A stretch of 52,077 nt of DNA from a virus. Of this stretch, positions 1,462 through 49,560 are shown piece by piece. The position numbers were made by a program, and so were the translations under genes. The DNA is taken from IMG/VR virus record IMGVR_UViG_3300013772_000008, positions 1 through 52,077 of that record; one strand, given 5' to 3'. The notes beneath the pieces were generated by a model. That model searched no databases and was not told where the DNA came from. It worked only from the letters and a program-made list of their open reading frames with translations. Each line of letters begins with the position of its first letter. The first letter of the stretch is position 1.

Positions 1462-1506
1462 TTAGCTCATCTGGACCGTGAGATTCCCCGAGGGGATGCT
1501 GGTTTG
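1462..1506 (-). pseudogene. Displaced original 3' end of the tail gene at 2270-3028
   Basis: Read leftward this encodes QTSIPSGNLTVQMS and TAA. The intact gene ends [15 protein letters not shown] and TGA at 2270-2317. The last seven residues are identical, but five of those seven codons (AAT/AAC, CTC/CTT, GTC/GTA, AGC/TCC and the Ile/Pro codons nearby) and the stop codon differ. The fragment has no start and stops abruptly at the promoter of the HNH cassette. It is best explained as the native C-terminus cut off when the cassette entered. Confidence 0.8.
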
Positions 1507-1520
1507 CCTATTGGAATGGA

Positions 1521-1536
1521 TGGTACAATTAGTACC
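1521..1536 (+). promoter_or_regulatory. Extended -10 promoter and palindrome for the HNH gene at 1561
   Basis: TGGTACAAT (TG, one base, TACAAT) at 1521-1529 is followed 31 bases later by the start codon. No good -35 box is seen, as expected for an extended -10 element. The -10 lies within the perfect inverted repeat GGTAC-AATTA-GTACC (1522-1536), a possible operator. Confidence 0.5.
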
Positions 1537-1560: not shown

Positions 1561-2289
1561 ATGGGTCGGATATGTTTGCCCGCATGCATCTGCACTGTCT
1601 GCGGGCAAAGCTTTCATCAACAGAGCCATACGTCCGGCGCCTACTGCAGCCGCGCATGCTATGAACGAATGCGTACTGACTTTCCGGCGCGTTTCTGGGA
1701 CAAGGTCAATCGCGGCGCTGCTAACGCTTGTTGGCCATGGACCGCGTGCTGCTTTCCCAATGGCTACGGGCAGATCTGCAGCAAGGGGAAAGCTAGAGGG
1801 GCACATCGCGTTGCTTGGGAACTGACATACGGGACGATCCCGTCCAACATGAGCGTCTGCCATACGTGTGATAACCGACGATGTGTCAACCCTGGGCATC
1901 TGTTTCTGGGAACTACGACAGAGAATATGCAAGATGCCGCCGTCAAAGGCCGAACGCTTGCTGGAGATCGGCACTGGAGCCGCCGCATGCCGGAGCGGCT
2001 TGCGCGAGGAGACGCGCATCCTTCGCGAGTGCATCCTGAGCGGGTGGCCCGCGGACTGCAATCCGGTGTCCATACCCATCCCGAGCGTTACCCGCGCGGA
2101 GAGGCCAAGCCCAACACGAAGTTGACTAACGTACAGGTAATCGAGATGCGCCATGAGCGGCAGGCAGGAATGACCCTCAAGGCCCTCGCCCACCGCTATG
2201 GCGTCGGCATCTCTACCATACATCGCATCGTGACCGGTCAAACGTGGCAATCTATTACGTCTCCGGCTATCAGGACATCTGTACCGTAA
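1561..2289 (+). CDS. HNH homing-type endonuclease, cassette 1
   Basis: 242 residues, ATG preceded by AGGAAGGTG. An N-terminal Cys-rich zinc-binding segment (residues 9-33, CxxC and CxxxC) is followed by an HNH_3-type core: AHR at 81-83, [19 protein letters not shown] at about 99-117. A linker with HPER-V/Y repeats (residues 140-170) leads to a C-terminal helix-turn-helix (about 178-225: [20 protein letters not shown]) that would read the target DNA. It is on the opposite strand to its neighbours and overlaps the last 20 bases of the tail gene it faces. With its own promoter and a duplicated target 3' end on its far side, it fits a self-contained homing cassette. Nuclease activity is inferred from the family. 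Confidence 0.88.
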
Positions 2290-3028
2290 GGTTCGAGATA
2301 GGGATACTCGGGGTCTGGTTAGCCCCACTCACCGTTATCGTGCCGGGAGCGCCTGCAGTAACCTGCGCAGCGGTAAACACGCCGGTTGTCGGCTGCGTCA
2401 CCATCGTCAGCGTGTGCGTCTGCCCGACGATATTGTTGTCGAGGAACGTAATCGTGAACGTCGTGCTGGTGGCCGTGAACGCCGTCGCCGTTGGAGTCAC
2501 GGTTACGCTGCCAACTGGCACGCTCGCGAGCCCCAGCGCCTCGATGTACTCAAGCAGCCCCGCGCCAGTCGTGCCAACCGGAATGGCAGCCGTGTTCGTG
2601 CCATCGACCGCAATGACGAACGTACCCGTCGCTGCAGTGGCATTCGTCGCCAATGTGTTGACGGCGTTCGTGCCCTTGAGAGCTCCGAAGTAGTACATGT
2701 TACCGGCTGCGAAGGTGGCGCTGTCGCACACCGCGAAATGGGTAGCGGCCGCTGAATAGGCCGCAGTTGACGCGGGGAACGTAACTACTGCTGAGTTAGC
2801 AATAGAAGTAGGAGTCGCGCCAGTCGGGGCGTTGGCGAACGCAATCACCGTCCGGGCATAGCCCCCGACGTTGCCCACTTCAGGCATCGTCGCGCCTGTC
2901 TGCGAGACCGTTGGCAGCGAGGAGCACAAGCACGCATAGAAGTTCGTTGGGGCTGCGTGCGTGGCGGTGTCGAGTTTTGGGAAACGCTCCAAGTAGATAA
3001 CCTGTGCGAAGTTACTTAGGTTTGCCAT
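2270..3028 (-). CDS. Tail-associated structural protein (GGYAR...THF family)
   Basis: 252 residues, ATG with AAGGAG eight bases upstream. Residues 1-120 follow a pattern common in phage tail or fibre proteins: an N-terminal helix, an 'xxLC-S' segment, GGYARTVI at about 55-62, VVTFPAS, then THFAVCDS and YYFGAL near 97-118. The second half (130-250) is Thr/Val rich and probably a beta domain. The final 15 codons are a diverged replacement of the copy stranded at 1462-1506. It lies directly downstream of a terminator, so it may have its own promoter or depend on read-through. Role in the virion surface or tail tip is inferred from family resemblance and position. Confidence 0.65.
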
Positions 3029-14350: not shown

Positions 14351-14359
14351 TGGTAAAAT
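14351..14359 (+). promoter_or_regulatory. Extended -10 promoter of cassette 2 (HNH)
   Basis: TGGTAAAAT, i.e. TG-n-TAAAAT, 69 bases upstream of the ATG at 14429; no clear -35. Same class as the promoters at 1521, 20264 and 40483. Confidence 0.5.
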
Positions 14360-14373
14360 AGAGGCGTGAAAGT

Positions 14374-14402
14374 GCCGCGGCGGTACGTGAATACCCCGCG
14401 GC
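14374..14402 (+). promoter_or_regulatory. Leader hairpin of the HNH gene
   Basis: GCCGCGG (14374-14380) and CCGCGGC (14396-14402) form a perfect 7-bp stem with a 15-base loop in the untranslated leader, ending 26 bases before the start codon. It could slow elongation or affect initiation. Confidence 0.4.
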
Positions 14403-14428
14403 GTGGCAACAGAAGCTGGAGGCTTCCG

Positions 14429-15334
14429 ATGCGTCTTAAGTCTACATCCCCCCGTCTTTGCTCGATTCCCGATTGCAGGCGTGTGCATAAAGGCTACGGC
14501 CTCTGTTCCCCTCATCTGCAACGTCAAAAGTACGCCGATAGGACTGGCACTTACCGCCAATGCTCCATTGCCGGTTGTGCTCGGACGCATCTCGCGGTCG
14601 GGTATTGCAGAATCCACTACGGACGATGGAAGGCAACTGGCGATCCGCTGCTTACGCGGTTGGAGGCACGACCGCCCCGACTGTGCATAGTCACGGGATG
14701 TGGCAAGCCGCGTCCTGGCAGACTGTATTGCGATATGCACTACGACCGTGTACGGAAGTACGGGGATATCAACTGTGCCCGCGATCCGAAGCGCCCGCGA
14801 CGCGAACGAAGGAAGCCGATCACCGCTGCTGAGTTGCTTGCTAAGTATCCCGTCGAAAATGTCTACCGCCCGCCGGAGGTCGCGGACCGATTCTGGTCGC
14901 ACGTCCAGCGCGGCGGTCCGGATGAATGCTGGGAATGGCAGGGCTTTCGGAATCGTCTCGGCTACGGCAGCGCGTGGTTGGGCATCCCGCACCGCCCAAT
15001 CAATGCCCAACGGGCCGCGTGGATTCTGACGTACGGTGACATTCCCTCGCCGCGCGTGCACGTCTGCCACCACTGCGACAACCCGCCATGCTGTAATCCG
15101 GCGCACCTGTTTCTTGGTAGCCACGCAGAAAACGCCCGAGATATGGCGAGCAAGGGACGTATGCCCTACAGAGTCGCCCTGACGATTGAGCAGGCAGAGC
15201 AAGTGCGGGCACGCTACGCGGTGGGCGATATCACGCAACGTGAACTCGCCCTCCAATTCGGCGTTTGCCAGATGACGATCCACATGGCTGTGAGATGTAA
15301 AGGCTCGTATGCGCTGCGGACCCGGATAATGTAG
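14429..15334 (+). CDS. HNH homing-type endonuclease with zinc-finger array, cassette 2
   Basis: 301 residues from ATG 14429, which has GGAGG seven bases upstream; the earlier GTG at 14366 lies in the leader hairpin region and lacks a ribosome site. Three C-x4/5-C-x9-C-x2-H fingers (residues 11-29, 45-63, 86-104) precede an HNH_3 core: CWEWQGFRNRLGYG (168-180) and VCHHCDNPPCCNPAHLFLG (212-230). In place of the AHR of its relatives it has AQR (193-195). A C-terminal HTH (about 255-290, ITQRELALQFGVCQMTIHMA) should recognise DNA. It is convergent with the tape measure gene, whose stop lies six bases away. Family assignment is firm, homing is inferred. Confidence 0.87.
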   Translation: MRLKSTSPRLCSIPDCRRVHKGYGLCSPHLQRQKYADRTGTYRQCSIAGCARTHLAVGYCRIHYGRWKATGDPLLTRLEARPPRLCIVTGCGKPRPGRLYCDMHYDRVRKYGDINCARDPKRPRRERRKPITAAELLAKYPVENVYRPPEVADRFWSHVQRGGPDECWEWQGFRNRLGYGSAWLGIPHRPINAQRAAWILTYGDIPSPRVHVCHHCDNPPCCNPAHLFLGSHAENARDMASKGRMPYRVALTIEQAEQVRARYAVGDITQRELALQFGVCQMTIHMAVRCKGSYALRTRIM

Positions 15335-15339
15335 GTAGG

Positions 15340-18300
15340 TCATATTAAACCAACCTGAAGCCGTAGCTCCTGAGTCAAGCCCCGCACGGCAGCACGGGCC
15401 AGCGCCTCATCGGTGGTCAGTGGGCGATTCTGAAGCGCGATTATCGCGTCGATTATCTTCTTGTAGGCGTCCAGTTGCGCCTTCACGCCGTCGGCAGCCC
15501 TCTGTGCATCCGCCGCCTGCGCCTGAGAGCGCGCGATTTCAGCAGATTGCATCCGGCTCTTTTCGGTATCCCCGACGTACTGCCCCGTGGTAGGGTCGGT
15601 CCACTGAGCGGCGGCCGCAGCCACTTTCGTCTGCTGCTCGGTCTGTTGGGCCCAGAACCGTTGCCTTGCTGCTTCATCGGAGAAGCCGTAGCTCTCTGGG
15701 CCGCCGCCTGTGTCGGCCCCCATTCTCTCCTCAAGCGGGGTGTTGATGTACCACAGCTTCCCCGAGCTGTCTTCGACCGCCGTGTGACGACCGGAGCCGC
15801 CCACATATTTGAGCCCGCTGGGAGCAGCGGCCCCGCCACCGCCGGCGCCACCGGCTGCTGCAGCAACGGATTCGTGCGCCGCTATCTGCGTGGTCGCGCT
15901 CGCTTGTGCATTCTGCCCCATTTGGGCTTCTGCACGTTGATTCGCGTTCAACATGTCGTCCAAGGTCCGTAGATAGTCCTCAAGTATGCTTCGGTTGATA
16001 CCCGAGAGTGTGGGATCTGCAAGCTGTCTGTGGACCGCTGCAATAGCCGCACTCAATTGCGAGTCTGCCGCTATGTAGGCCGGTAGCTGCGCCGCGGCGG
16101 CTGCGTAGTTATCCCGCTGCTGCTGGGTAAGCGACATATTGTTAGCTTGTATTTGGAAGTCGGCGATTCTATTAGCACTGGAAATGCGTAGATGTTCCGT
16201 CGCGTCCCATCCAGCGTTGTATGCGGTGATATCGGTCTGCGTTGTTGCTGCGTCCGTTACTGCGAGCGCCGTGAGTCCCGTCGATCGGTTCTGTGCCGCT
16301 GTAAGCCGCGCCTGAGCCGCGGCTACACCAGATGCGGCGTCGGCGATATCGATAGCGCTGGCGTGCGCCAGGTTCGCGTCATCGAGAGCACCTTGCGCCG
16401 TGTTCAGGTCCCTCTGTGCTTCAAGTACGTCATGATTCGCGTTGAGCGCCGCCTGTTTGCTAAGGTTCGCCGTACTTACGTCGCTCGCGAGTGTCTGGGT
16501 GTTGACCTCTCTATGCGCGGCGACCACACCGATGCCAGCGATCCGCGCCGTGTCCGCGCCTTCTCTCACGAGCGCCTGCTGCCCGGACGCCTCGTGTTCC
16601 GCCTGGGTCGTCCTCAGTGCCGAGTCGCCCGTGAATGACGTTGTAGCGTCGTGCCAGGCAGCGACAGCCGCATTAGCTGCATGAGTCGTGCTGTTAACGA
16701 CCAACTGGTCTTGTCTAATCGTCTCAGCGCTGACGCCGTTCGGATCGTTCAGGTCAGCGAGCAACTTGGCTTCGGCGCCACTGGCGTCGCCGAGACGTGC
16801 CTGTGCGGTGTCGAAGGCGCTTTTAACGGTTTCGCTGTCCGCCGCCGTGTAGGCACCGGTCAGCGTTGTGATCTGACCCTGTATCGTGTTGAGCGCCGTC
16901 GTTGCGGATTCGCTAAGCGCCGCGATCTGATCGGGCGTGAGGGGTTTATCGCCTGCTACCGGCTTCTCCTGCGCGGGCAACACCGGAGGGCCGCCGCCGC
17001 TGCCGCCGGCAGCCGCGTCCCCCCCGCTGGCATCTGGGGCCCCGCCCTCGGTGGCACCGCGCCCCGGTGCAGTGCCTACCCCGGGGCCAGCGTTGCCGCT
17101 CAACGTAGTACCAGCGGCCCTCCACGCTGCACTGAAGTCACCACGCCTCACGCGGGTATCATCTACGCTCCCGTTTGGCCGCTCCATCGCGATTTCCATC
17201 GCGTGCGCGCCAGCCTCTCCGCCGCCAGCCGCTTGATATGCCCGAATACCCGCTTGTAGATCGCCACTAGCTGCGAAGGCATCGAGACTGCCGCTAGCGG
17301 TCGTAACGTTGAACCCCGCAGCCTCCGCTGTCGCCCTTGTGCCGCCTGAGAACTGGAACGGATTGCCGGATGTACCGCCAGGGTCTTCATAATTCGATAC
17401 GGTGAGTAGCGCTCGCGCCAGCGTACCGGGGTCAACGCCGAAACGAGCCGCATTAGCAGCTGCCCAGCCAGCAATGTCACCCGCATTACCGGATAGGCCA
17501 GCGGGCATAGAACCACTGCCAGCACTCGACGAGCCAGTGCCCCACACCGTCTCCGGGTCCACGATCACGCCGTTCCGCGTGGTCACAATGTGCGTATGCG
17601 GCCCCTCGCTAAGGCCGGAATTCGGGTCTCCCACGGCGCCGCCTGATAGTCCGACCGTTGCGCCCGCGGCAACTCGGTCACCCACGGTGAGCAGAGTAGA
17701 CGAGAGATGACCAAACGTTTCCTCCAGGCCGTTTCCGAGGTCGATAGTGATCGATAGTCCGAGCCCTGTTTGCCCCTGCCTGCCGATTGCCTTAACAACC
17801 CCGGCGCCCGCCGCGCCCAGCGTCGTACCGACCGGAATAGCGAAGTCTTCTCCTTGATGGAAATGCTGGCCGTTGATCATCGGCTCCAGCGCTTCGTCGG
17901 TGGGCCCGTACGGTTGCGAGATACTACCGGATGTCGTGGGGCGCATAAGGCCGCCGGGCCCAACACCCGGAAACGACATCCCGCCGCTGCCGGAGCCTGA
18001 CCCGAGGATGTTAGGTATCGACCCGACTTTAGCGATCGCTCCCCCGATGGCGGCCGTTACCAAATCCCACGCCCGCGCGATGGGATCGATCACCAGCTTC
18101 TGGCGAACTGCCGACGCCTCGGTGTCGGTCGCCAGCGTGCCGACCGACTTCCCTGCCGTGCCGGTCGCCGTTGTCTGGTCTTTGTACGAGCCCTCAACCT
18201 TGCCACTAGAGAGACCGAGCAACCGCGCCCGCTCGGTCTCGGTGAGTCCCGTCTTGCCTTCTTGGGTAGCAGTATCTGCGCTGGCCTGGGTCTTATCTTG

Positions 18301-20103
18301 TTCGACTTTTATGTTGTCCTTAAGCGCCTGCTGGTGCGGTTTGAGGGCAAAGTCGATAGTCTTCTGGGCGTTTGCAAACGCGGCCCCCGATGGGTCGTAC
18401 TCGATCTGGCGATCAAGTTCGGCTTGATCGGCTGCTGTCTTCGAGGCGGCGGCGCCTGAGAGTTTGTCCTGATCGACGATGTTCTGCAGGTGAGCGATGT
18501 GCTGTTGCGAAGCATTGCCGTTCGACAGTTTGGCGTTGAACGTATCGATTTGCAGTTCTGTGGCGTGAAGCTGACGGGTAAGCTCGTTTTCCTCCGGCGA
18601 GGGGATTTTGAGCATCCCGACAATCTGCTCGTGGGCCTTGGCTATCTCCGGGAGAAGGCCCGAGTCCAGCTCCTGGGTGATGGTGTCGATCATCGATTGG
18701 ACGTTGCCGCTGGACGAGGCGGTATTCCACGCATCGTCAAGCTTCTTAACGTTATCGGCGGCTACTCGATAAGCCTCGGAATTTTCGGTGGTCGTCTCCT
18801 TAGCGTGCTTCAGGCTGTAATCGAACTGCGGAAAGACATCAAGCAGGCTCTGGACTTTCGTGTCGAAGCCTTCCACCTCGACCGCAGACGCCTTTGCCTG
18901 ATTGCCCATCAGCCCGAAGGTAGCACCCAGTTGGTCAACAAGCGGCCCAGCGACTGCGGCTGTCTTGCCCACCGTATCGATGTTCGTGGCAGCGAAGGCG
19001 AGCGGACCGGTGGCATTGGTAACGGCACTAGCAGCGCCGTCGGTATTATCCTTCACTTTGCCTAACTGATCCGCTGCGCCGGACCAGTCCAACTTGGCGG
19101 CGTCCCAAGCCCCCGCCGATAGGTGCAAGGCATCGGTTAGGAGGTGAAACTTATCATTCGCATCCTGCGCCTTTGTAATCGTCTCCTGGATCGGCGCGGG
19201 GAGCAAATGAAAGATGCCCAGCAAGTCCCTGACGTGCTGCTCGGCGCTGAGCACTTCCCTCGACAATCCGGTGATCGCGTTGATGACCGGCCCGCCGACC
19301 ACGACCTCAAAGCCCTGCATGGCGAGCGTTAGATCTGCCATCGACTTGTGGTAAGCCAGAACGCTTTTTTCGGTTACTCCGATGCTGGCTCCGGACGCGT
19401 CGATTGCCGCCTTAGCCTCATTCGTGGCGGCGCTGCCCTGATTCAAAATCGGGATTAGGTTTGCTCCGGACCGTCCAAAGAGGTCCATCGCGATCTGCGT
19501 TTTATTCAGAGAATCGCTAGCGTTCCGAAAAGCGTCAGCTACCGCAGCAAGCTGCTGGTCGGGGTTGAGCTTCAGAAACGTCCCGAGGTCGATTCCAAGC
19601 TTTTCAAGATCGAGCGCCATCTTGCCTGTAGGAGCCGAACCTCTGTCGATCTGATCAGCTAGCGTGCCTACGTTGCGCTCGAAGATTTGAAGCGCACGCC
19701 CAGAAGCGTCGGCGCTCTGCCCGATCGTCTCAAACTGGTAGCCAAGCGCTTGGACGGTTGGGATGCTTAGGCCGGTCTGCTCCGCCGTCTCGCGTACTCG
19801 ATCGGCAAGCCCGATAAGCGCATTCGCCGCACCAGCAGCCAAGGCGACCAGTGCCACACCTAGTAACGCCGCTCCTGCCTCAGCGGTTTCAGCGCCGCGG
19901 GCAAAGTCGAGTAACTCGGCCCTAGCTTGGCTGAAGCCCCCGGCAAGGTGTCCGGTCGCGAAATCGAGCCCCGCAACGATGCCGGTTAGATTGGTAGCTT
20001 CGACCGCTACGCTACGAGCTGCCTGGGCGTGCTCGGACGCCGCAGTGGCTGCCCCGCGGTGACTCTCAGCCCCGCGCCCGGCCGCGCCGGAAAGCGCATC
20101 CAC
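15340..20103 (-). CDS. Tape measure protein with M23 peptidase domain
   Basis: 1587 residues as annotated from GTG 20103. The N-terminal half is helical with a hydrophobic stretch near 75-98 (AGAALLGVALVALAAGAANA), typical of tape measure proteins that set tail length. Residues 735-860 are an M23 (lysostaphin-type) domain: HFHQGEDFAIP, FGHLSS and HTHI provide the zinc ligands His, Asp and His-x-His. A second globular part (870-1000, PNPFQFSGGTRATAEAAGF-like) may be a transglycosylase-like segment. The rest is helix-rich Ala/Gln sequence. The coding signal continues upstream of 20103 to about 20246 without a usable in-frame start (see findings), so the true N-terminus is uncertain. The 3' end abuts HNH cassette 2. 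Confidence 0.9.
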   Translation of the reverse strand: MDALSGAAGRGAESHRGAATAASEHAQAARSVAVEATNLTGIVAGLDFATGHLAGGFSQARAELLDFARGAETAEAGAALLGVALVALAAGAANALIGLADRVRETAEQTGLSIPTVQALGYQFETIGQSADASGRALQIFERNVGTLADQIDRGSAPTGKMALDLEKLGIDLGTFLKLNPDQQLAAVADAFRNASDSLNKTQIAMDLFGRSGANLIPILNQGSAATNEAKAAIDASGASIGVTEKSVLAYHKSMADLTLAMQGFEVVVGGPVINAITGLSREVLSAEQHVRDLLGIFHLLPAPIQETITKAQDANDKFHLLTDALHLSAGAWDAAKLDWSGAADQLGKVKDNTDGAASAVTNATGPLAFAATNIDTVGKTAAVAGPLVDQLGATFGLMGNQAKASAVEVEGFDTKVQSLLDVFPQFDYSLKHAKETTTENSEAYRVAADNVKKLDDAWNTASSSGNVQSMIDTITQELDSGLLPEIAKAHEQIVGMLKIPSPEENELTRQLHATELQIDTFNAKLSNGNASQQHIAHLQNIVDQDKLSGAAASKTAADQAELDRQIEYDPSGAAFANAQKTIDFALKPHQQALKDNIKVEQDKTQASADTATQEGKTGLTETERARLLGLSSGKVEGSYKDQTTATGTAGKSVGTLATDTEASAVRQKLVIDPIARAWDLVTAAIGGAIAKVGSIPNILGSGSGSGGMSFPGVGPGGLMRPTTSGSISQPYGPTDEALEPMINGQHFHQGEDFAIPVGTTLGAAGAGVVKAIGRQGQTGLGLSITIDLGNGLEETFGHLSSTLLTVGDRVAAGATVGLSGGAVGDPNSGLSEGPHTHIVTTRNGVIVDPETVWGTGSSSAGSGSMPAGLSGNAGDIAGWAAANAARFGVDPGTLARALLTVSNYEDPGGTSGNPFQFSGGTRATAEAAGFNVTTASGSLDAFAASGDLQAGIRAYQAAGGGEAGAHAMEIAMERPNGSVDDTRVRRGDFSAAWRAAGTTLSGNAGPGVGTAPGRGATEGGAPDASGGDAAAGGSGGGPPVLPAQEKPVAGDKPLTPDQIAALSESATTALNTIQGQITTLTGAYTAADSETVKSAFDTAQARLGDASGAEAKLLADLNDPNGVSAETIRQDQLVVNSTTHAANAAVAAWHDATTSFTGDSALRTTQAEHEASGQQALVREGADTARIAGIGVVAAHREVNTQTLASDVSTANLSKQAALNANHDVLEAQRDLNTAQGALDDANLAHASAIDIADAASGVAAAQARLTAAQNRSTGLTALAVTDAATTQTDITAYNAGWDATEHLRISSANRIADFQIQANNMSLTQQQRDNYAAAAAQLPAYIAADSQLSAAIAAVHRQLADPTLSGINRSILEDYLRTLDDMLNANQRAEAQMGQNAQASATTQIAAHESVAAAAGGAGGGGAAAPSGLKYVGGSGRHTAVEDSSGKLWYINTPLEERMGADTGGGPESYGFSDEAARQRFWAQQTEQQTKVAAAAAQWTDPTTGQYVGDTEKSRMQSAEIARSQAQAADAQRAADGVKAQLDAYKKIIDAIIALQNRPLTTDEALARAAVRGLTQELRLQVGLI

Positions 20104-24865: not shown

Positions 24866-25843
24866 TCAGACCGTTGCGATCACAAATCCATTGGGATGGT
24901 ATAATACAGGTCCGCCGTTGTGCCCGTCCTGTATGATTATCTGCCTCGGTACTTCGTTGGGGTCATCGTCAACCTTGGTGTACGGTCCAGGCGCGAGCCC
25001 CGCGTTGTTGGCGTTGCGCGTAATCCGGTACTCCGCCAGCGGGTCGCCGGTGGAGCGCCGTCCGACAACCACGACCTTGTTGTTCGGAATCCACAACTGG
25101 AACGTTCCCGTGCTGTCGTAGTAGCCCTGGTCATAGACGACGATGTTGGCAAGCCCGTCCTGTGTGATGAGTTGGTTAATCTGGTCCGGGCTGTTCAGCG
25201 TTGAGAGGCCCGCAGCACGCCGGCCACCAAGGTCCGCCGCGTTCGTGTTGCTGAGCAACGAATTCAGCGTCGTCTGGTTCATGTACGCCTTGGCGCCGGC
25301 ACCGAAACTCAAGCTATAGCCGCGAGCCTTGAGCGCAATGGCCCGGAGGTCGGCCAGCGGCGTTGCCGTCGCCACCGTCGCCCACGGCACGCCCGCTGAG
25401 AATGTCTGCGTGGTGTAGGAGTCGGTATGCAGCACGCTGGTCCCGTCGGCCACGCTGAATGTGCCGGTCTCCAGCAGGGTCCAGCCGATGTAGCGCAACC
25501 GGTTCAGTCGCCGCTGCAGCAGCACGTCCTGGCCCTCACGAACGAGGTCAGTGATGCTGATGGCCCCAACAAACGTGCCCCACGGGCGACGAGCGGTCAA
25601 AGACATCTCGTCAATCGTGTAGAACTCGCCGTACACGCCGGGTTGCATCTGGTAGCGTTTGCCGCCGATTGGCTTGACGCGCGACGGCTCGCCGTTGAGC
25701 CCGCGTACGCCTTGCAACCCGAGGAAATTATCCTGCTGTTCCCATTCGAGCAGGTGAGCGTCCACGTTGCGGATGGGCATGATGTCCGCCAACATTGGGT
25801 CGCCGAGGACTAACTGCGGCATCATCTCCTGTTCGATCTGCAT
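24866..25843 (-). CDS. Major capsid protein (capsid E type)
   Basis: 325 residues from ATG 25843. The pattern (MADIMPIRNVDAHLLEWEQQ; YQMQPGVYGEFYTIDE; LDEMSLTARR region; FSVADGTSVLHTDSYTTQTF; KAYMNQTTLNSLL) matches phage capsid proteins of the E family (HK97 fold). It follows a decoration protein gene. The frame is open for 15 further codons upstream (GTAIADFTFPSAIEL) to a TAG, with no ATG, GTG or TTG; these residues read like a natural capsid N-terminus, so an unusual start or base error near 25879 is possible. Confidence 0.87.
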   Translation of the reverse strand: MQIEQEMMPQLVLGDPMLADIMPIRNVDAHLLEWEQQDNFLGLQGVRGLNGEPSRVKPIGGKRYQMQPGVYGEFYTIDEMSLTARRPWGTFVGAISITDLVREGQDVLLQRRLNRLRYIGWTLLETGTFSVADGTSVLHTDSYTTQTFSAGVPWATVATATPLADLRAIALKARGYSLSFGAGAKAYMNQTTLNSLLSNTNAADLGGRRAAGLSTLNSPDQINQLITQDGLANIVVYDQGYYDSTGTFQLWIPNNKVVVVGRRSTGDPLAEYRITRNANNAGLAPGPYTKVDDDPNEVPRQIIIQDGHNGGPVLYHPNGFVIATV

Positions 25844-38960: not shown

Positions 38961-40409
38961 TCACAGGTCTACTCCTGCCCGCTCGGCGAGCACTCGGAAC
39001 GCGAACGCGGCGCACTGCGGCACGACGGCGTTGCCGAGCGCTCGGAGCTGGTCAACGCGATATCGGGGTTCGCCCAGTCCGGATGCAGCCCCATCAGCCA
39101 GGCCACGAAGCGAGGATTGAGGCGTGCCGCCGGAGTCGGCTTCGGCACCATATATTCCAGACTCGTTGGATATGTCTTGCCCTTGACCTTGCTTGACGTG
39201 CCGGGTTCCACTCGCGGTGTTGGCCAGAGCCGGCGCGAGTTCGGGCCAGCGTTCGAGGACGGCAGCCCATCCGGCGGCATCGCTTGGGCGTGGTGGGAAA
39301 GGTCCGATGCTCGCCGCCTGCCCGCGCTCGGCTTGTAGCCGTCCACCGCTTTCGGCGTCGCCCATCGTGGCGCTTGCCTTCCGAGTAGCCCGTTCGTCGG
39401 TGCGTTCTCCGATGGGCTCGTGCCGTCCTTGTGGTCGCGTGATGTCGGCGTCGCCCACGCCGCCGCTTCGCCCGCTAGCACCCGCCCGTGCGTCGTGCCG
39501 TGCGATGGCGCTGGCTTTGTGGTCCGGTTCTCGCTCATGCTGCTGCGTGGCGTCGACCAGAGTTTCGCCACGTTCTCTAGGCCGATCTGCCGCTTCTTGC
39601 CGTCCGGAGTCATGCCCGTGGGCGACGTTCCCGGCGTATTGATCCGTCCGCCGTTTGGAACGTTCGGCGTAGGCCAGAGTTGTGTTCTGAGGTCCGGACC
39701 GCAGTCTCCATGTCCCCCCGATCCATTCGTGATCGCACTGCGTGCCGTAGAGTAGCGCGTCGCTGCATCCCGTCGCCCTGGATCTTCCGCTATCGCCCCG
39801 AGATGCCGCGCTGCCCGCGATTGCATCCACCACGGCCGACCGTCGTCCTTCCACGGAGCTGTCTGCGATGTCCCAAGGGCCGCCGTTGCGGTAGGCCAAT
39901 ATGAAGACTCGTTCTCGTAGCTGTGATGCGCCGACTTCCGCCGCCGTGAAACAGCCCCATTCCGCAGCGAACCCCATTTCGGCCAGGTCACTGAGGACGA
40001 GTTCCAGTCCTCCCCCAGTAATGAGCCCTGGGACGTTTTCCAGGAACACGAACCGCGGTCGAACGTCGCGAATGATTCCCGCGATGGCCGGCCAGAGCCA
40101 GCGCTCGTCTGCGGTTCCGGCTCGCTTGCCAGCGACGGACCACGGCTGACAGGGGAAGCCTGCCAGGACGATATCCACGACGCCACGCCACGGTCGGCCG
40201 TTAAAGCTGTACAAGTCATCCCAGATAGGAAACGCATCCAAGGAGCCGTCTTGCTGACGCGCGACCAGGACCGCGGCAGCAAAGACTTCGATCTCAACTG
40301 CACAGACAGTCCGGTAGGCATCTCCGAGGGCCAGCTTGAGCCCGAGGTCAAGTCCGCCAATACCAGCGCAGAGTGAGAGCCCACGGATGGGATGTACAGC
40401 CACATTCAC
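38961..40409 (-). CDS. C5-cytosine DNA methyltransferase
   Basis: 482 residues from GTG 40409, which overlaps the stop of the displaced HTH-gene fragment (GTGA) and has GGAG five bases upstream; the open frame beyond it is the antisense of the HNH gene. Motif I GLSLCAGIGGLDLGL (10-24), motif IV GFPCQPWS with the catalytic Cys87, motif VI LENVPG (123-128), motif VIII QLRERV (163-168), and motif X GNAVVP near 457. The target-recognition region between VIII and X is about 250 residues, long, Arg/Gly rich. It makes 5-methylcytosine; the site read is unknown. Its ribosome site lies in the fragment at 40406-40471. Confidence 0.92.
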   Translation of the reverse strand: MNVAVHPIRGLSLCAGIGGLDLGLKLALGDAYRTVCAVEIEVFAAAVLVARQQDGSLDAFPIWDDLYSFNGRPWRGVVDIVLAGFPCQPWSVAGKRAGTADERWLWPAIAGIIRDVRPRFVFLENVPGLITGGGLELVLSDLAEMGFAAEWGCFTAAEVGASQLRERVFILAYRNGGPWDIADSSVEGRRSAVVDAIAGSAASRGDSGRSRATGCSDALLYGTQCDHEWIGGTWRLRSGPQNTTLAYAERSKRRTDQYAGNVAHGHDSGRQEAADRPRERGETLVDATQQHEREPDHKASAIARHDARAGASGRSGGVGDADITRPQGRHEPIGERTDERATRKASATMGDAESGGRLQAERGQAASIGPFPPRPSDAAGWAAVLERWPELAPALANTASGTRHVKQGQGQDISNESGIYGAEADSGGTPQSSLRGLADGAASGLGEPRYRVDQLRALGNAVVPQCAAFAFRVLAERAGVDL

Positions 40410-40471
40410 TGCGTCTCCGTGTACGCTGCCAGCGCCGCGCGGACGTGTCCCGAGGTTGTGCCGAACTTGGC
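40406..40471 (-). pseudogene. Displaced original 3' end of the LuxR-type HTH gene
   Basis: Leftward this reads AKFGTTSGHVRAALAAYTET-Q-stop. The intact gene at 41170 ends AAKFGTRSGQIRRALQHEAK and on. In the shared part KFGTxSGx(I/V)RxAL nearly every third codon position differs (TTC/TTT, GGC/GGG, ACA/ACG, TCG/TCA, CGC/CGG, CTG/CTT), so both copies evolved under selection as coding sequence. The fragment lacks a start, ends in the native GTGA coupling with the methyltransferase gene, and is cut 12 bases from the HNH promoter. Confidence 0.82.
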
Positions 40472-40482
40472 GGGAGAAAAAC

Positions 40483-40491
40483 TGGTATAAT
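40483..40491 (+). promoter_or_regulatory. Extended -10 promoter of cassette 4 (HNH)
   Basis: TGGTATAAT: TG, one base, and a perfect TATAAT, 58 bases before the ATG at 40550. No convincing -35 box. Confidence 0.6.
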
Positions 40492-40495
40492 AAGA

Positions 40496-40525
40496 GCGAG
40501 GCGCGTGCTTGTGACACGCCCTCGC
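40496..40525 (+). promoter_or_regulatory. Leader hairpin of the cassette 4 HNH gene
   Basis: GCGAGG-c-GCGTG (40496-40507) pairs with CACGC-CCTCGC (40515-40525) around loop CTTGTGA, an 11-bp stem with one bulge. It begins five bases after the -10, so the transcript would start with this structure; it could stabilise the 5' end or attenuate expression. Confidence 0.5.
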
Positions 40526-40549
40526 CCCGACACCGAAGAGGTGACTTCG

Positions 40550-41158
40550 ATGCGCCCTCAGTGTATCTGTTCCAACTGTGGTCTGAGTAAGCCCCATCAC
40601 GCTCGGGGGATCTGCAAGGCTTGCTATGACCGCGCCCGCCTTGTCGCCCATCCCGATGCTCGCCGCGATTATTTCGCCGCCTACCGTGCGACCCATCCAG
40701 ACGAACGACGGGCCTATTACGTCGCTCATCGCCAGGAGGTGTGTGCCCGAAGCACAGCTCGCCGTGTCGCTCTGCGCGATGAAGCGTTGGCTTATGGCGT
40801 CGCTTATTACGCGCGGCATCGCGCGGAGTTTGCCGCATACTCTGCGGCGCATCGGGGGGAAGAGCGCGCTCGTCGTGCTGCACATCCTGAGATAGGCCGA
40901 GAACAACGCCACCGACGCAGGGCCAGCCTTCGTGTGGCTTTCGTCGCACCCGTCTATTTTCTGGACATTTGGGAACGTGACAAAGCCGTCTGCGGTATCT
41001 GTCATAAGCGAGTGCCCCGGAAGCTTGCGAGCTTGGACCACATTCTGCCCATAGCCTGCGGCGGCACTCATGAACCCCGAAATGTGCGCTTGGCGCATCG
41101 CCGGTGCAACTTCAAGCGCCAGCATCGCGGCGCTGCCCAACTGCGGTTGATTGGCTAG
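40550..41158 (+). CDS. HNH endonuclease with tandem-helix linker, cassette 4
   Basis: 202 residues from ATG 40550 with AGAGGTG upstream; the earlier frame to 40373 is antisense to other coding sequence. An N-terminal Cys cluster (CICSNCG...CKACYDRAR, 5-30) is followed by four or five short repeats of the type (Y)YxAHRxE (40-115) and a C-terminal HNH core: CGICHKRVPRKLASLDHILP and GGTHEPRNVRLAHRRCN (about 148-190). This differs from the HNH_3 type of the other four nucleases. Convergent with the LuxR-type HTH gene, whose stop is 11 bases away. Confidence 0.88.
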   Translation: MRPQCICSNCGLSKPHHARGICKACYDRARLVAHPDARRDYFAAYRATHPDERRAYYVAHRQEVCARSTARRVALRDEALAYGVAYYARHRAEFAAYSAAHRGEERARRAAHPEIGREQRHRRRASLRVAFVAPVYFLDIWERDKAVCGICHKRVPRKLASLDHILPIACGGTHEPRNVRLAHRRCNFKRQHRGAAQLRLIG

Positions 41159-41169
41159 CATTGGCGCGG

Positions 41170-41409
41170 TCATAACTTTGCCCTCTTGGCTTCGTGCTGA
41201 AGTGCCCGCCGGATTTGTCCTGACCTCGTCCCAAACTTCGCAGCGATGCTCATCACGTACTGCCGAACGGTGGTCACCTTCACGCCCATGCTGCGAGCGA
41301 TCGTGCCGGTGGATTCGCCCTGCCAGAGCAGTTCGAGTACGCGCTTCTCACGCTCGGCTAGCTCCGGCGGGTGCGTGAGTGCGCTGGTCCGATCGCGGTA
41401 CGTCGTCAT
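41170..41409 (-). CDS. LuxR-type HTH DNA-binding protein, 79 residues
   Basis: ATG overlaps the stop of the zinc-ribbon gene (ATGA). Residues 19-66 form a LuxR/GerE-type helix-turn-helix: REKRVLELLWQGESTGTIAR, then VKVTTVRQYVMSIAAKFGTR. No regulatory domain is attached. It probably controls a phage or host promoter. The last 22 residues (after KFGT, 58-61) come with HNH cassette 4; the original end lies at 40406-40471. Confidence 0.8.
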   Translation of the reverse strand: MTTYRDRTSALTHPPELAEREKRVLELLWQGESTGTIARSMGVKVTTVRQYVMSIAAKFGTRSGQIRRALQHEAKRAKL

Positions 41410-41552
41410 GGCGTGTCCTTGTTGCGGAGCGGCGCCGGCGGATCGTATTTGCTGCAGGCGATGTTCGTGCAGACGTTTTCACCGCGGGCGGTGTCGCGCG
41501 TGAGCCCACGGCCGCAGACGTAGCAGTAGTCGTAATAGAGGATTGGCTTCAC
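41406..41552 (-). CDS. Zinc-ribbon microprotein, 48 residues
   Basis: GTG 41552 overlaps the rusA stop (GTGA) and has GGAGGAG upstream; its TGA overlaps the HTH ATG. CYVCGRGLTRDTARGENVCT-x4-C (near 10-34) is a zinc ribbon. Unknown function, in the coupled chain of early genes. Confidence 0.6.
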   Translation of the reverse strand: MKPILYYDYCYVCGRGLTRDTARGENVCTNIACSKYDPPAPLRNKDTP

Positions 41553-41998: not shown

Positions 41999-42314
41999 AG
42001 TCGTAATCTTCTCCGAGCCAAATCCCGTACACGTCCACACGGTCGGTGTCGGCTTCAAACCACCAGGCGGCGCCGGTGTCCTCGCACGTCAGCGTCAAGC
42101 CGGCGTTGACCAGGTGGACCGTCTGCCCGAGGTGCGTCACCGAACACGCCGCCGTGCGGCCCGCCGTGACGGTCGTGCCGGTAGCCGTTGTGCAGCACTG
42201 AAAATAGCTCGTTACCCTCGTGTATCCGTCTGCTCGTGCTTTCGGCGCCGGGAGGGCAGCGGCAATCGAAAGCATCACCGCTGCGCCAACCCCCAGCGCC
42301 TTGCGCCGCGTCAA
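41982..42314 (-). CDS. Exported protein with Tat-type signal peptide, 110 residues
   Basis: TTG 42314 overlaps the stop of the HNH gene (TTGA) with GGAGG five bases upstream. LTRRKALGVGAAVMLSIAAA followed by LPAPKARA is a twin-arginine-like signal with AxA cleavage. The mature part (about 80 residues) has four Cys and aromatic-rich end (WWFEADTDRVDVYGIWLGED). It should be secreted by the host. Function unknown; an envelope-acting or exclusion factor is possible. Confidence 0.65.
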   Translation of the reverse strand: MTRRKALGVGAAVMLSIAAALPAPKARADGYTRVTSYFQCCTTATGTTVTAGRTAACSVTHLGQTVHLVNAGLTLTCEDTGAAWWFEADTDRVDVYGIWLGEDYDYVWFE

Positions 42315-42898
42315 ACGTGCCTCCAAGTCTTGCCATGAATCACGTTATAAATGGCCGTAGGACCCACGCCGAACGCATTGGCTATCTGTTTCTGAAACTC
42401 TCCTTTCGCTACGCGACTCCGAATCTCGCGTACCGCACCCTCGGTAAGTTTTGATGAAACGTGATTTTCACCGCGTGGTAACCGCTCGGGGTGTAAGTGA
42501 TTACCGCTGTTATTGCCGCGTGGTCGTCGTTCAGGATGCGTGCGACTACCATGTCGCTCTCCGCGTGCTAGGCACTCGGGGTGTAGGCGACTACCGCTTC
42601 TATTTCCGGTAGCGGATCGTCCCTTCGCGGTCATATCGCGATTGTTGTCGGCGACGGTTCCCAGAAACAGATGATTCGGTCGCACGCATGGCGGGTTGTC
42701 GCAGTGGTGGCAAACGCAGAAACCGGAAGGGATGGGGCCGAATGTCAACGTCCAAGCAATTCGGTGCGTCCCGGTCTTGCGGCCGGTTCTACCGTCTCGG
42801 GCCTGCCCATAACCGCCGGTGGCTTTGCCGCCCTGCCATTCCCAACAATCGGCCGAGCGTTTGACCTTAGTCCAGAAGTTGGCAGTTGTGTCGGTCAT
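42311..42898 (-). CDS. HNH homing-type endonuclease, co-directional copy 1
   Basis: 195 residues from ATG 42898 in a TGATG overlap. HNH_3 core: DCWEWQGGKATGGYG (near 17-31), THRIAW (44-49), VCHHCDNPPCVRPNHLFLG (near 62-80). Then three HPER-type repeats (SGSRLHPECLARGERHG, SRTHPERRPRG, NHLHPERLPRG) and a C-terminal HTH (KLTEGAVREIRSR... IANAFGVGPTAIYNVI). It sits in the leftward operon with tight overlaps on both sides and has no own promoter. Confidence 0.88.
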   Translation of the reverse strand: MTDTTANFWTKVKRSADCWEWQGGKATGGYGQARDGRTGRKTGTHRIAWTLTFGPIPSGFCVCHHCDNPPCVRPNHLFLGTVADNNRDMTAKGRSATGNRSGSRLHPECLARGERHGSRTHPERRPRGNNSGNHLHPERLPRGENHVSSKLTEGAVREIRSRVAKGEFQKQIANAFGVGPTAIYNVIHGKTWRHV

Positions 42899-43137
42899 CA
42901 GACCTGCACCGCGCGGTCTGTCCGGTACTTCGACGGCACTAGCAACGTCGGCATCTCGCGCGCCGCCGTATTGGCGCACTTCGTCGAACAGTAAAGTCCA
43001 CTGACCGCGCAGTGTGCCCAGCCGGCGCGACCGATGCGCTGCCCACAGAGTTTGCAGACGGCCCATTGCGCGGCGGCGGCTGATAGCGGGATGCGACGTA
43101 ACGATTGGGGGTGGGCATCTTGGTATGAAGTGGTCAT
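42898..43137 (-). CDS. Zinc-finger protein, 79 residues
   Basis: ATG 43137 overlaps the stop of the HNH gene upstream (ATGA) and has AAAGGA before it. CKLCGQRIGRAGWAHCAVSG and LYCSTKCANTA form a zinc ribbon of the same kind as the microproteins at 6118-6607. It is placed between two HNH genes. Function unknown. Confidence 0.6.
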   Translation of the reverse strand: MTTSYQDAHPQSLRRIPLSAAAAQWAVCKLCGQRIGRAGWAHCAVSGLYCSTKCANTAAREMPTLLVPSKYRTDRAVQV

Positions 43138-43643
43138 GCTGTCATCCTTTCGACGGGCTGTACGTGCCCCCACGACTTGCCGTCGCGAATAAACCCGACC
43201 GCTCTGCGCGAGACGCTGTAGCGCCGGGCCAAATCGCCCATACTTACGAAGCCGAATGAAGACTTCATTTCGGCGACTTGCTGGGCCGTGAGTTTGGCGG
43301 CCCCGTTGCGTTCGCCGCGTGCTAGCCGGTCGGGGTGGGTGCGCGCTCCGTTGCGCTCACCGAGAGCGCCGCGACCCTTTAAGGCCGAGTCACGATTGTT
43401 ATCCGCCCGTGTACCGATGAAAAGATGGCCCGGTCGGCAGCACGGGGGGTTATCGCATCTGTGAAGTACGCATAGGCCAGGTGGTATGGGCCCACGGGCC
43501 AATTCCCAAGCAAGCCTGTGAGCCTTCACATGTTTTCCACCCCAGTGTGACTGGCCATATCCCTTCGACGTTCGGCTCGCCTGCCATTCCCAGCAAACCG
43601 GCCCACATTCAACATTCGCCCAAAAGGCCGCGGACGTGTTCAT
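43134..43643 (-). CDS. HNH homing-type endonuclease, co-directional copy 2
   Basis: 169 residues, ATG overlapping the stop of the ATPase gene (ATGA). VCWEWQASRTSKGYG (16-30), AHRLAWELARGPIPPGLCVL and HRCDNPPCCRPGHLFIG (about 61-77), one HPDR repeat, then a C-terminal HTH (KLTAQQVAEMKSS; ARRYSVSRRAVGFIRDGKSW). Closest in build to the nucleases at 42311 and 1561. It breaks the ATPase-zinc-finger pair without disturbing either frame. Confidence 0.88.
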   Translation of the reverse strand: MNTSAAFWANVECGPVCWEWQASRTSKGYGQSHWGGKHVKAHRLAWELARGPIPPGLCVLHRCDNPPCCRPGHLFIGTRADNNRDSALKGRGALGERNGARTHPDRLARGERNGAAKLTAQQVAEMKSSFGFVSMGDLARRYSVSRRAVGFIRDGKSWGHVQPVERMTA

Positions 43644-47999: not shown

Positions 48000-48385
48000 C
48001 CTGGCGCTCGCCCGATGCCGACGCATGGGTGTCTCGGCTCGGCCTCGTGGTGATCTGGCGCGACCTGCAAGAACTCGACGAGCTGATAGTGCCGCCAGTG
48101 ATTGCGCTACGAGCCACCACAACGGCCCCTGAGCGTCGCTGGCTAATCTTCCACGCAATTGCCCATCTCCGGCTGCACACGGGTAACCAGCTTTATCTGG
48201 TGCGTTCCGGCGACAGCGTGCGACTCGCCAAGCAAGAGCATCAGGCCGAAGTGTGGACAGCGCGGCTACTTGTACCGGGTTGCGAGTTAATGGCGGCAAT
48301 TGCCGACGGATTGGCCGGTGACGAGCTGGCGGAGATGTTTAGCGTTCCGGCCGCAGGCATTGCTTTGGGGATAGGGCTACTGTAA
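47996..48385 (+). CDS. ImmA/IrrE-like metalloprotease, Glu-less motif
   Basis: 129 residues in ATGA-like overlap with the repressor gene. The order and sequence (RRWLIFHAIAHLRLHTGNQL near 47-66; HQAEVWTARLLVP near 81-93) match ImmA/IrrE peptidases that cleave XRE repressors after DNA damage. The expected HExxH is HAIAH (53-57): the two metal His are kept but the catalytic Glu is Ala. It may bind the repressor without cutting it, or represent a known Glu-less subgroup. Confidence 0.75.
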   Translation: MTWRSPDADAWVSRLGLVVIWRDLQELDELIVPPVIALRATTTAPERRWLIFHAIAHLRLHTGNQLYLVRSGDSVRLAKQEHQAEVWTARLLVPGCELMAAIADGLAGDELAEMFSVPAAGIALGIGLL

Positions 48386-49560
48386 TGCGCAACCCACAAG
48401 GTGAAGGCTCAAAAATCCGGCAGCGGCCCGACGGACGGTACACCGCTTCGATTCGCATCGGTGACGGCCGGCGCAAGTCCGTCTACGGCCGCACCTATAA
48501 TGAAGCGCGGTCGAAGCTGGCCCGCGTGCGTGACCAACGCCGGCAGCATGTGCCGGTGCCATCCGAGCGGCTGAAACTCAGCACGTACCTGGACGAATGG
48601 CTGGCGGGCAAAGCGTCGGAGATCCGTCCTGGCACCTACGCGCCGTACGAGTCGCATATCAGGCTGCATCTGACGCCGCAACTCGGCAGCATCGTCCTGG
48701 TGAGGCTTGAGCCGGGGCACGTACGCCGGTTGTACGCCGGGCTGGTTGCCGGCGGCATGTCGCCTACAACCGTGCGCCGCGTCCACGCGGTACTGCGTCA
48801 GGCGCTGCAGCAGGCGATGCGCGACGGACTGGTATCGCGCAACGTCGCCGCCCTGGTGCGCCCTCCACGGGCTGCGGCCTTCACGCCGGTGGGGCTATCA
48901 CCCGAGCAGGCGCGGGCTTTCCTCGCAGCGGTGGCCGGTGACCACCTAGAGGCGCTGTACTGGCTCCTGCTCACGACAGGGTTGCGTGAAGGCGAACTAC
49001 TAGCGCTCAAATGGTCGGACGTCAATCTGGACGGCACTCAGCTCGCGGTACGGCGCACGCTTCGAACACGGGGTGGTGAGCAGTTCCTCGAGGAACCGAA
49101 AACGGCGAGCTCGAAGCGTGAGGTGATGCTCACCGGGCACATGGTTGATTTGCTGCGCCGCCACCGCGCCGCGCAACGCGTGCAACGTCTGCGCGTGGCC
49201 GACCTATGGCAGGACCAGGACCTCGTATTCTGCGATGGCGTTGGCCGGCCGCTTTCACCCTACCGTCTGCTCCGCACGGAGTTCCGCGGTCATCTGCGGC
49301 GGTTGGGTTTGCCGGCAGCGATGCGTCTGCACGACCTCAGACACGCGTTCGCGACGATGCTGATCGCGGACGGCGTGCCCGTCTCGACCGTATCCAGCAT
49401 CCTCGGGCATAGTAGGATCAGCACGACACTAAACGTCTACGTGCATCCCTCGACCGGGCAGCAGCAGCGGGCGATAGACGCGCTGGATCGGCTGCTACCG
49501 GGGGCAGGTGGTGGTCAAGATGGTTGTACAAGTTCGGGTGAAACGGTCCAACACGGTTGA
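48385..49560 (+). CDS. int: Tyrosine-family integrase
   Basis: 391 residues; ATG overlaps the preceding TAA (TAATG). Arm-binding N-terminal part (GDGRRKSVYGRTYNEARSKL) and a SAM-like core-binding domain (62-165) precede the catalytic domain with Arg201 (TGLREGELLALKW), Lys near 239-244 (PKTASSKREV), His316 and Arg319 (LHDLRH), His342 (LGHSRISTT) and Tyr352 (NVYVHPS). All catalytic residues are present. It recombines attP with the host site; the tRNA-like sequence 15 bases downstream is the likely attP core. Confidence 0.93.
   Translation: MRNPQGEGSKIRQRPDGRYTASIRIGDGRRKSVYGRTYNEARSKLARVRDQRRQHVPVPSERLKLSTYLDEWLAGKASEIRPGTYAPYESHIRLHLTPQLGSIVLVRLEPGHVRRLYAGLVAGGMSPTTVRRVHAVLRQALQQAMRDGLVSRNVAALVRPPRAAAFTPVGLSPEQARAFLAAVAGDHLEALYWLLLTTGLREGELLALKWSDVNLDGTQLAVRRTLRTRGGEQFLEEPKTASSKREVMLTGHMVDLLRRHRAAQRVQRLRVADLWQDQDLVFCDGVGRPLSPYRLLRTEFRGHLRRLGLPAAMRLHDLRHAFATMLIADGVPVSTVSSILGHSRISTTLNVYVHPSTGQQQRAIDALDRLLPGAGGGQDGCTSSGETVQHG

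Follow-up and report, generated by a model that had tools for sequence, protein, structure and literature searches.

A free-standing HNH gene at the 3' end of a phage LuxR-type regulator gene and a presumed substitute end

Introduction

Homing genes that lie in neither introns nor inteins are usually thought to be limited to intergenic gaps, since a gene that received such an insertion would be destroyed. A close described counterpart of the locus reported here comes from fungal mitochondria, where mORFs carry a foreign C-terminal replacement, as in atp6 of Allomyces and in atp6, atp9, cox2 and nad3 of Glomus (PMC3630166). As is presumed for our locus, an endonuclease ORF comes with a foreign end that continues the reading frame of the host gene, and the native end is stranded beyond the nuclease (PMC3630166). 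The ends of the mORF-bearing genes, like those described below, are also less conserved at the DNA level than at the protein level, with values for atp6 of 63.5% at the nucleotide level and 91% at the amino acid level (PMC3630166). The mORF nucleases are, however, LAGLIDADG or GIY-YIG enzymes whose ORFs are reportedly cotranscribed with the gene (PMC3630166), whereas here two HNH subfamilies are involved, and the nuclease genes are convergent with their targets and have promoters of their own. Unlike the mORFs, moreover, the present case lies in a phage genome, and related phage cases replace the starts of genes.

Among phage systems, the free-standing homing endonucleases of the seg and mob type in T-even phages resemble the present one in that HNH genes lie between phage genes with neither intron nor intein, and both the co-conversion of flanking DNA and one-sided repair at microhomologies are documented for them (PMC2988022). 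Their insertions are intergenic with a distant cleavage site, and the accessible text of that review does not describe a stranded end together with a substitute gene end (PMC2988022). In ICP1, HNH and T5orf172 nucleases likewise sit near essential phage genes at the boundaries of genetic exchange; there, the split genes remain intact thanks to introns and splicing, and replaced ends are not described in the available part of that study (PMC10448857). Prophage e14 provides another parallel, having inserted in the 3' part of icd with a substitute end, the old end lying on the far side (PMC11148124). The substitute end spans 54 codons, with 12 nucleotide changes and 2 amino acid changes (PMC11148124). 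In contrast with the cassette described here, which has an HNH gene only, e14 uses an integrase and an att site (PMC11148124). No description of end replacement by phage homing genes was found in the open-access literature, and an earlier one may exist in subscription papers.

Results

The window, that is, the whole 52-kb stretch of an IMG/VR virus record that was analyzed, carries genes that include, according to Pfam profiles, an integrase gene (48385-49560) and a repressor-like gene. From about 37 to 45 kb the genes form a minus-strand run, mostly with short overlaps, and a lone plus-strand HNH gene breaks this operon run (Table 1). The initial annotation had this gene facing the 3' end of a LuxR-type HTH gene that stops at 41170; the coordinates proved right and both ORFs were confirmed. 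The catalytic domain of the nuclease was recognized by PF14279 (32.9 bits) and PF01844 (29.4 bits), both above the curated cut-offs. The gene is free-standing, being a separate ORF with its own promoter motif and an SD sequence (GAGGTGA, 40538-40544). It is the sole ORF of the cassette, in which no site-specific recombinase was found, the phage integrase being encoded elsewhere, and the Rfam group I and group II intron families gave no match at 40300-41500. The HTH gene is full length, since its frame continues into a homologous, presumably substitute, end, and GerE is matched up to position 49 of 57. This end is taken to run from about codon A57.

Table 1. Features of the HTH/HNH locus, cassette 1 and the third plus-strand HNH gene (positions in the window)
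Feature	Positions	Strand	Evidence or remark
LuxR-type HTH gene (PF00196 GerE) with its current end	41170..41409	-	79 aa; ORF; Pfam GerE 41.4 bits
HTH gene, presumed replacement of the 3' end (codon A57 onward): AKFGTRSGQIRRALQHEAKRAKL, then stop	41170..41241	-	Tail alignment, GerE scores
Stranded (presumed native) HTH end: AKFGTTSGHVRAALAAYTETQ, then stop	40406..40471	-	Tail alignment; completes GerE
Extended -10 promoter of the HNH gene: TGGTATAAT	40483..40491	+	Motif scan; separated from the stranded end by 11 nt
HNH leader hairpin, resembling a terminator on the minus strand	40499..40521	.	Consensus scan only
HNH nuclease gene (PF14279/PF01844; PHROG 1035/338)	40550..41158	+	202 aa; convergent with the HTH gene
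C5-cytosine methyltransferase gene, following the stranded HTH end	38961..40409	-	GTG start at 40409
Cassette 1 stranded end of the Gp80-like gene: QTSIPSGNLTVQMS, then stop	1462..1510	-	Tail alignment
Cassette 1 promoter: TGGTACAAT	1521..1529	+	Motif scan
Cassette 1 HNH_3 nuclease gene (PF13392)	1561..2289	+	ORF, Pfam
Cassette 1 target gene (PF23140 Gp80-like) with its current end, overlapping the HNH stop	2270..3028	-	ORF, alignment, Pfam
Promoter of the third plus-strand HNH gene: TGGTAAAAT	14351..14359	+	Motif scan
Third plus-strand HNH_3 gene	14366..15334	+	Convergent with the tape-measure gene 15340-20103

In a six-frame search of the whole window, the best match to the tail of the HTH gene was the minus-strand segment between the HNH promoter and the methyltransferase gene (score, 54; next best, 39), and none of 5,000 dinucleotide shuffles of the flank reached this score (maximum, 45; Gumbel P of about 1e-5). 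The two ends can be aligned over 14 codons only, with no alignment beyond, and of these codons 8 differ synonymously, 4 differ non-synonymously and 2 are identical. Nucleotide differences at codon positions 1, 2 and 3 number 2, 2 and 10 and thus fall mainly at the wobble position, which indicates that both ends diverged while coding. This agrees with the earlier description of the segment as a diverged HTH end with wobble changes. As a measure that does not depend on the gene's own tail, the Pfam GerE score of the HTH body was 34.2 bits with no end, 41.4 bits with the current end and 42.1 bits with the stranded end, and ten shuffled ends gave 33.3 to 35.0 bits. The stop of the stranded end (TGA, 40406-40408) overlaps the start of the methyltransferase gene (GTG, 40407-40409) in a GTGA junction, exactly as had been noted. 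The wobble-biased divergence, the completion of GerE, this junction and the lone plus-strand gene with its own promoter all support the proposal of the initial annotation that the HTH gene carries a replacement end.

Two side observations concern the methyltransferase gene. The hairpin in the HNH leader precedes the stranded end and, being terminator-like on the minus strand in the consensus scan, could separate expression of the methyltransferase from that of the HTH operon. The methyltransferase gene also has a second open frame (+1) along its whole length, which starts within a few bases (MWLYIPS...) and has LNPRFVAWLMGLHPDW near its end. This frame is open in most relatives of the methyltransferase (L003, L004, L006, L008-L013, L015 and L016), with a similar start (M.WL[YF][IV]P) and similar end motifs, and the gene and its +1 frame look like a long overprinted gene pair.

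The same anatomy was observed in cassette 1, with another HNH family: its nuclease matches PF13392 and that of the HTH locus PF14279/PF01844, which places the two in different subfamilies, as originally claimed. The fragment TSIPSGNLTVQMS (with its stop, ending at 1462) aligned to the end of the Gp80-like gene with a score of 59, which was reached by none of 5,000 shuffles, and 7 of 13 codons differ synonymously. The likely start of the third plus-strand HNH gene is the ATG at 14430, after GGAGG, and no stranded end was detectable at this gene. The promoter motif TGGTANAAT occurs at four sites in the 52 kb, where 0.25 would be expected (0 of 100 shuffles reached four), and three of these sites lie directly upstream of the window's three plus-strand HNH genes. 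The fourth site, TGGTATAAT at 24897, is inside a capsid gene and was not counted as a cassette. Two more HNH_3 genes (42311-42901 and 43134-43643, minus strand) are co-directional within the operon, with ATGA/TGATGA overlaps; neither stranded ends nor promoters of their own were seen at these genes.

No usable relative of the HTH gene was found in IMG/VR (one distant relative, in a different context), INPHARED or the GTDB genomes, and no phage with the HTH gene joined directly to the methyltransferase gene was found in these collections. A DNA pattern made of the HTH tail and the methyltransferase head gave 0 matches in IMG/VR, and the HTH gene was upstream of the methyltransferase in 0 of 78 methyltransferase relatives. 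Single-sequence searches for the HNH protein of this locus returned no relative in IMG/VR, and overall distant ones only. The cassette 1 target gene had no confirmed relative in IMG/VR, nor had the phage terminase in GTDB, and the collections searched held no empty-site relative of the HTH/HNH locus. The two HTH ends were assigned only through the GTGA junction and by analogy, with the segment at 40406-40471 presumed native and that at 41170-41241 presumed to be the substitute.

HNH loci from IMG/VR and INPHARED, picked by similarity to the HNH genes of the window, were surveyed for replaced ends (126 loci) and starts (101 loci) with stop-anchored and start-anchored tests evaluated against shuffles and cross-pairs. 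These anchored tests were used instead of an initial tblastx-like survey of the flanks, which was swamped by spurious Arg/Pro-rich frames. The survey can pick up ends from roughly nine codons upward, and the frequency of replaced ends it yields is therefore a lower bound; at most of the surveyed HNH loci a stranded end was not detectable. The T7-like HNH genes before the DNA polymerase gene had no stranded head. Tail matches at L170, L195, L197, L200, L201, L204 and W42311 were set aside as homology between neighboring HNH genes. At L107 and L108, short ORFs that flank the HNH gene on either side (at about -120 and +370) have YQR...DC....PG in common (z of about 8).

Besides the two in the window, a single 3' case emerged from the survey (L205, IMG/VR). 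Gene X (PHROG 10477) of this locus ends in ...LPGVRVISGRVAAVRS and stop, and the HNH ORF that follows it ends in frame in ...IPGIRVYSRRVSSVRSA and stop; the two ends are also given as ...ALPGVRVISGRVAAVRS and ...AIPGIRVYSRRVSSVRSA, respectively, each with its stop. The end of the HNH ORF overlaps the next gene as ATGA, and no empty site was found in INPHARED. In three 5' cases (L097, L130 and L137), a diverged copy of the next gene's start forms, in frame, the beginning of the HNH ORF, and the current start of that next gene overlaps the stop of the HNH ORF, with overlaps of 4, 1 and 8 nt, respectively. Their scores were 52, 52 and 49, against a null distribution of 2,988 cross-pairs with a 99.9% level of 38 and a maximum of 48. 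The target at L137 is the small terminase gene, for which addition of the stranded head raises the Terminase_2 score from 96.6 to 112.1 bits. This head shares AQD with the TerS start of Itty13, which has no HNH gene before TerS, and AQD is missing from the current head at L137. The match to an HNH-free relative suggests that the stranded head is the native one.

Empty sites were available for Vibrio phages. Phage 1.079.O has an HNH_3-like gene before its SSB gene, and 1.067.O and 1.003.O are without it, their empty site being ATGGCATCACGCGGCGTTAATAAAG (MASRGVNK). In 1.079.O the stranded SSB start corresponds to the first 14 nt of the empty site; next come a cassette bearing TATAAT and the nuclease gene, after which the current SSB start reads ATGAGTAGTAGAGGGATAAATAAAG (MSSRGINK). 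The flanks are 97.7% identical to those of the empty site over 300 nt upstream and 97.0% over 300 nt downstream. The 18-nt head has only 7 of 18 nt identical to the empty site, yet encodes MSSRGI against MASRGV. These comparisons show that the stranded SSB start of 1.079.O is native and that the current one is an 18-nt substitute, and the empty sites hold a single SSB gene prior to insertion. By eye, and with no empty-site pair in either case, phage 199E37-1 has a different HNH gene before SSB, after a stranded ATGGCATCACGTGGCGTAAATAA, with the SSB gene starting MQKGIN, and 1.038.O has a nuclease-like gene between a stranded MSKIGV and a gene that starts MSKIGV. The nuclease-like gene of 1.038.O is annotated as a DNA-binding domain protein and appears AP2-like by eye. 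The stranded ends of the Vibrio phages are short, at 5 to 7 codons. In Vibrio phages (L222, L226 and L227), different nuclease genes have repeatedly inserted at the start of SSB, or of the gene that occupies its position behind the ERF/SAK recombinase gene, and a stranded start precedes each of them.

Discussion

Several other histories could leave a second HTH end beside the HNH gene. If two tandem HTH paralogues had been present, insertion of the HNH gene with a deletion that removed most of the second could have left its last 21 codons; tandem HTH genes are plausible in phages, and they too would be expected to leave an end that has diverged, with changes at wobble positions, and whose junction is native. 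This explanation nevertheless requires independent repeats for the fiber-type gene of cassette 1 and for gene X of L205, and the Vibrio empty sites contain a single gene before insertion, so that we consider it unlikely. Target-site duplication of the HTH end at insertion, followed by drift, would account for an insert flanked on both sides by the same gene end. However, drift of a dead copy would neither place 10 of 14 changes at third positions nor preserve the fit to GerE, HNH enzymes nick or make short staggers, and the stranded copy in Vibrio is the undiverged one; a duplication is therefore very improbable.

The alignment spans 14 codons only, as might be expected if the resemblance were due to chance or to a short coding tail of unrelated origin. 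The outcome of the shuffles, the lead of 15 score units over any other match in the window, a gain in GerE score that shuffled tails do not match and the repetition of the pattern in cassette 1 make such a coincidence extremely unlikely. Splicing of an intron, which would join the HTH gene to the distal end and so complete it, is hardly credible given the absence of an Rfam group I or II match, the antisense orientation of the HNH gene and the presence, in the HTH gene itself, of a homologous end in frame and with a stop.

In our interpretation, the cassette (about 40472-41241) very probably represents a free-standing homing element of the HNH type. On entering the HTH gene at its 3' end, it would have brought along a substitute for that end, derived from a diverged homologue, by virtue of which the regulator stays full length. 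The predicted nuclease would cut the HTH gene near the AKFG codons, and the cut HTH body would invade a donor that carries the nuclease gene beside a diverged HTH end. Synthesis would then copy the substitute end, the nuclease gene and its promoter, and the second side would be end-joined at the cut, leaving the old end past the nuclease and still coupled to the methyltransferase start. There, it may act as a second homology arm for later, ordinary homing besides preserving the link with the gene that follows, and the current end, being diverged, would not be cut again. Eight of nine cases have the substitute end 3' of the nuclease gene and the stranded end next to its promoter, the reverse being seen at L205, and this polarity points to a fixed one-sided repair route. 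One-sided homologous repair with end joining is the simplest such route that we infer. During one-sided intron homing in T4, illegitimate second junctions form at microhomologies, according to a review (PMC2988022).

Whether the solution had arisen twice in the window or is a property of the insertion route was posed as an alternative in the initial annotation. The route is favored over two separate origins, because the same anatomy is found in other phages with several HNH families and at both starts and ends, and the Vibrio empty sites also speak for it. Since the arrangement recurs in other phages, also at gene starts, it looks like a general, harmless way of entry into coding sequence. We lean slightly towards the broader view that insertion into coding sequence, by a fixed one-sided route and with a diverged substitute start or end that heals the gene, is common among the free-standing HNH genes of tailed phages, and that many "intergenic" HNH genes have this origin but stranded ends so short that they escape notice. 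The Vibrio set, with occupied and empty sites in named phages and different nucleases at the SSB start, makes the route testable by crosses. A substitute end would lift the intergenic limit and explain how homing genes gain access to highly conserved sequence, and it would mix gene ends between diverged phages, giving rise to hybrid genes.
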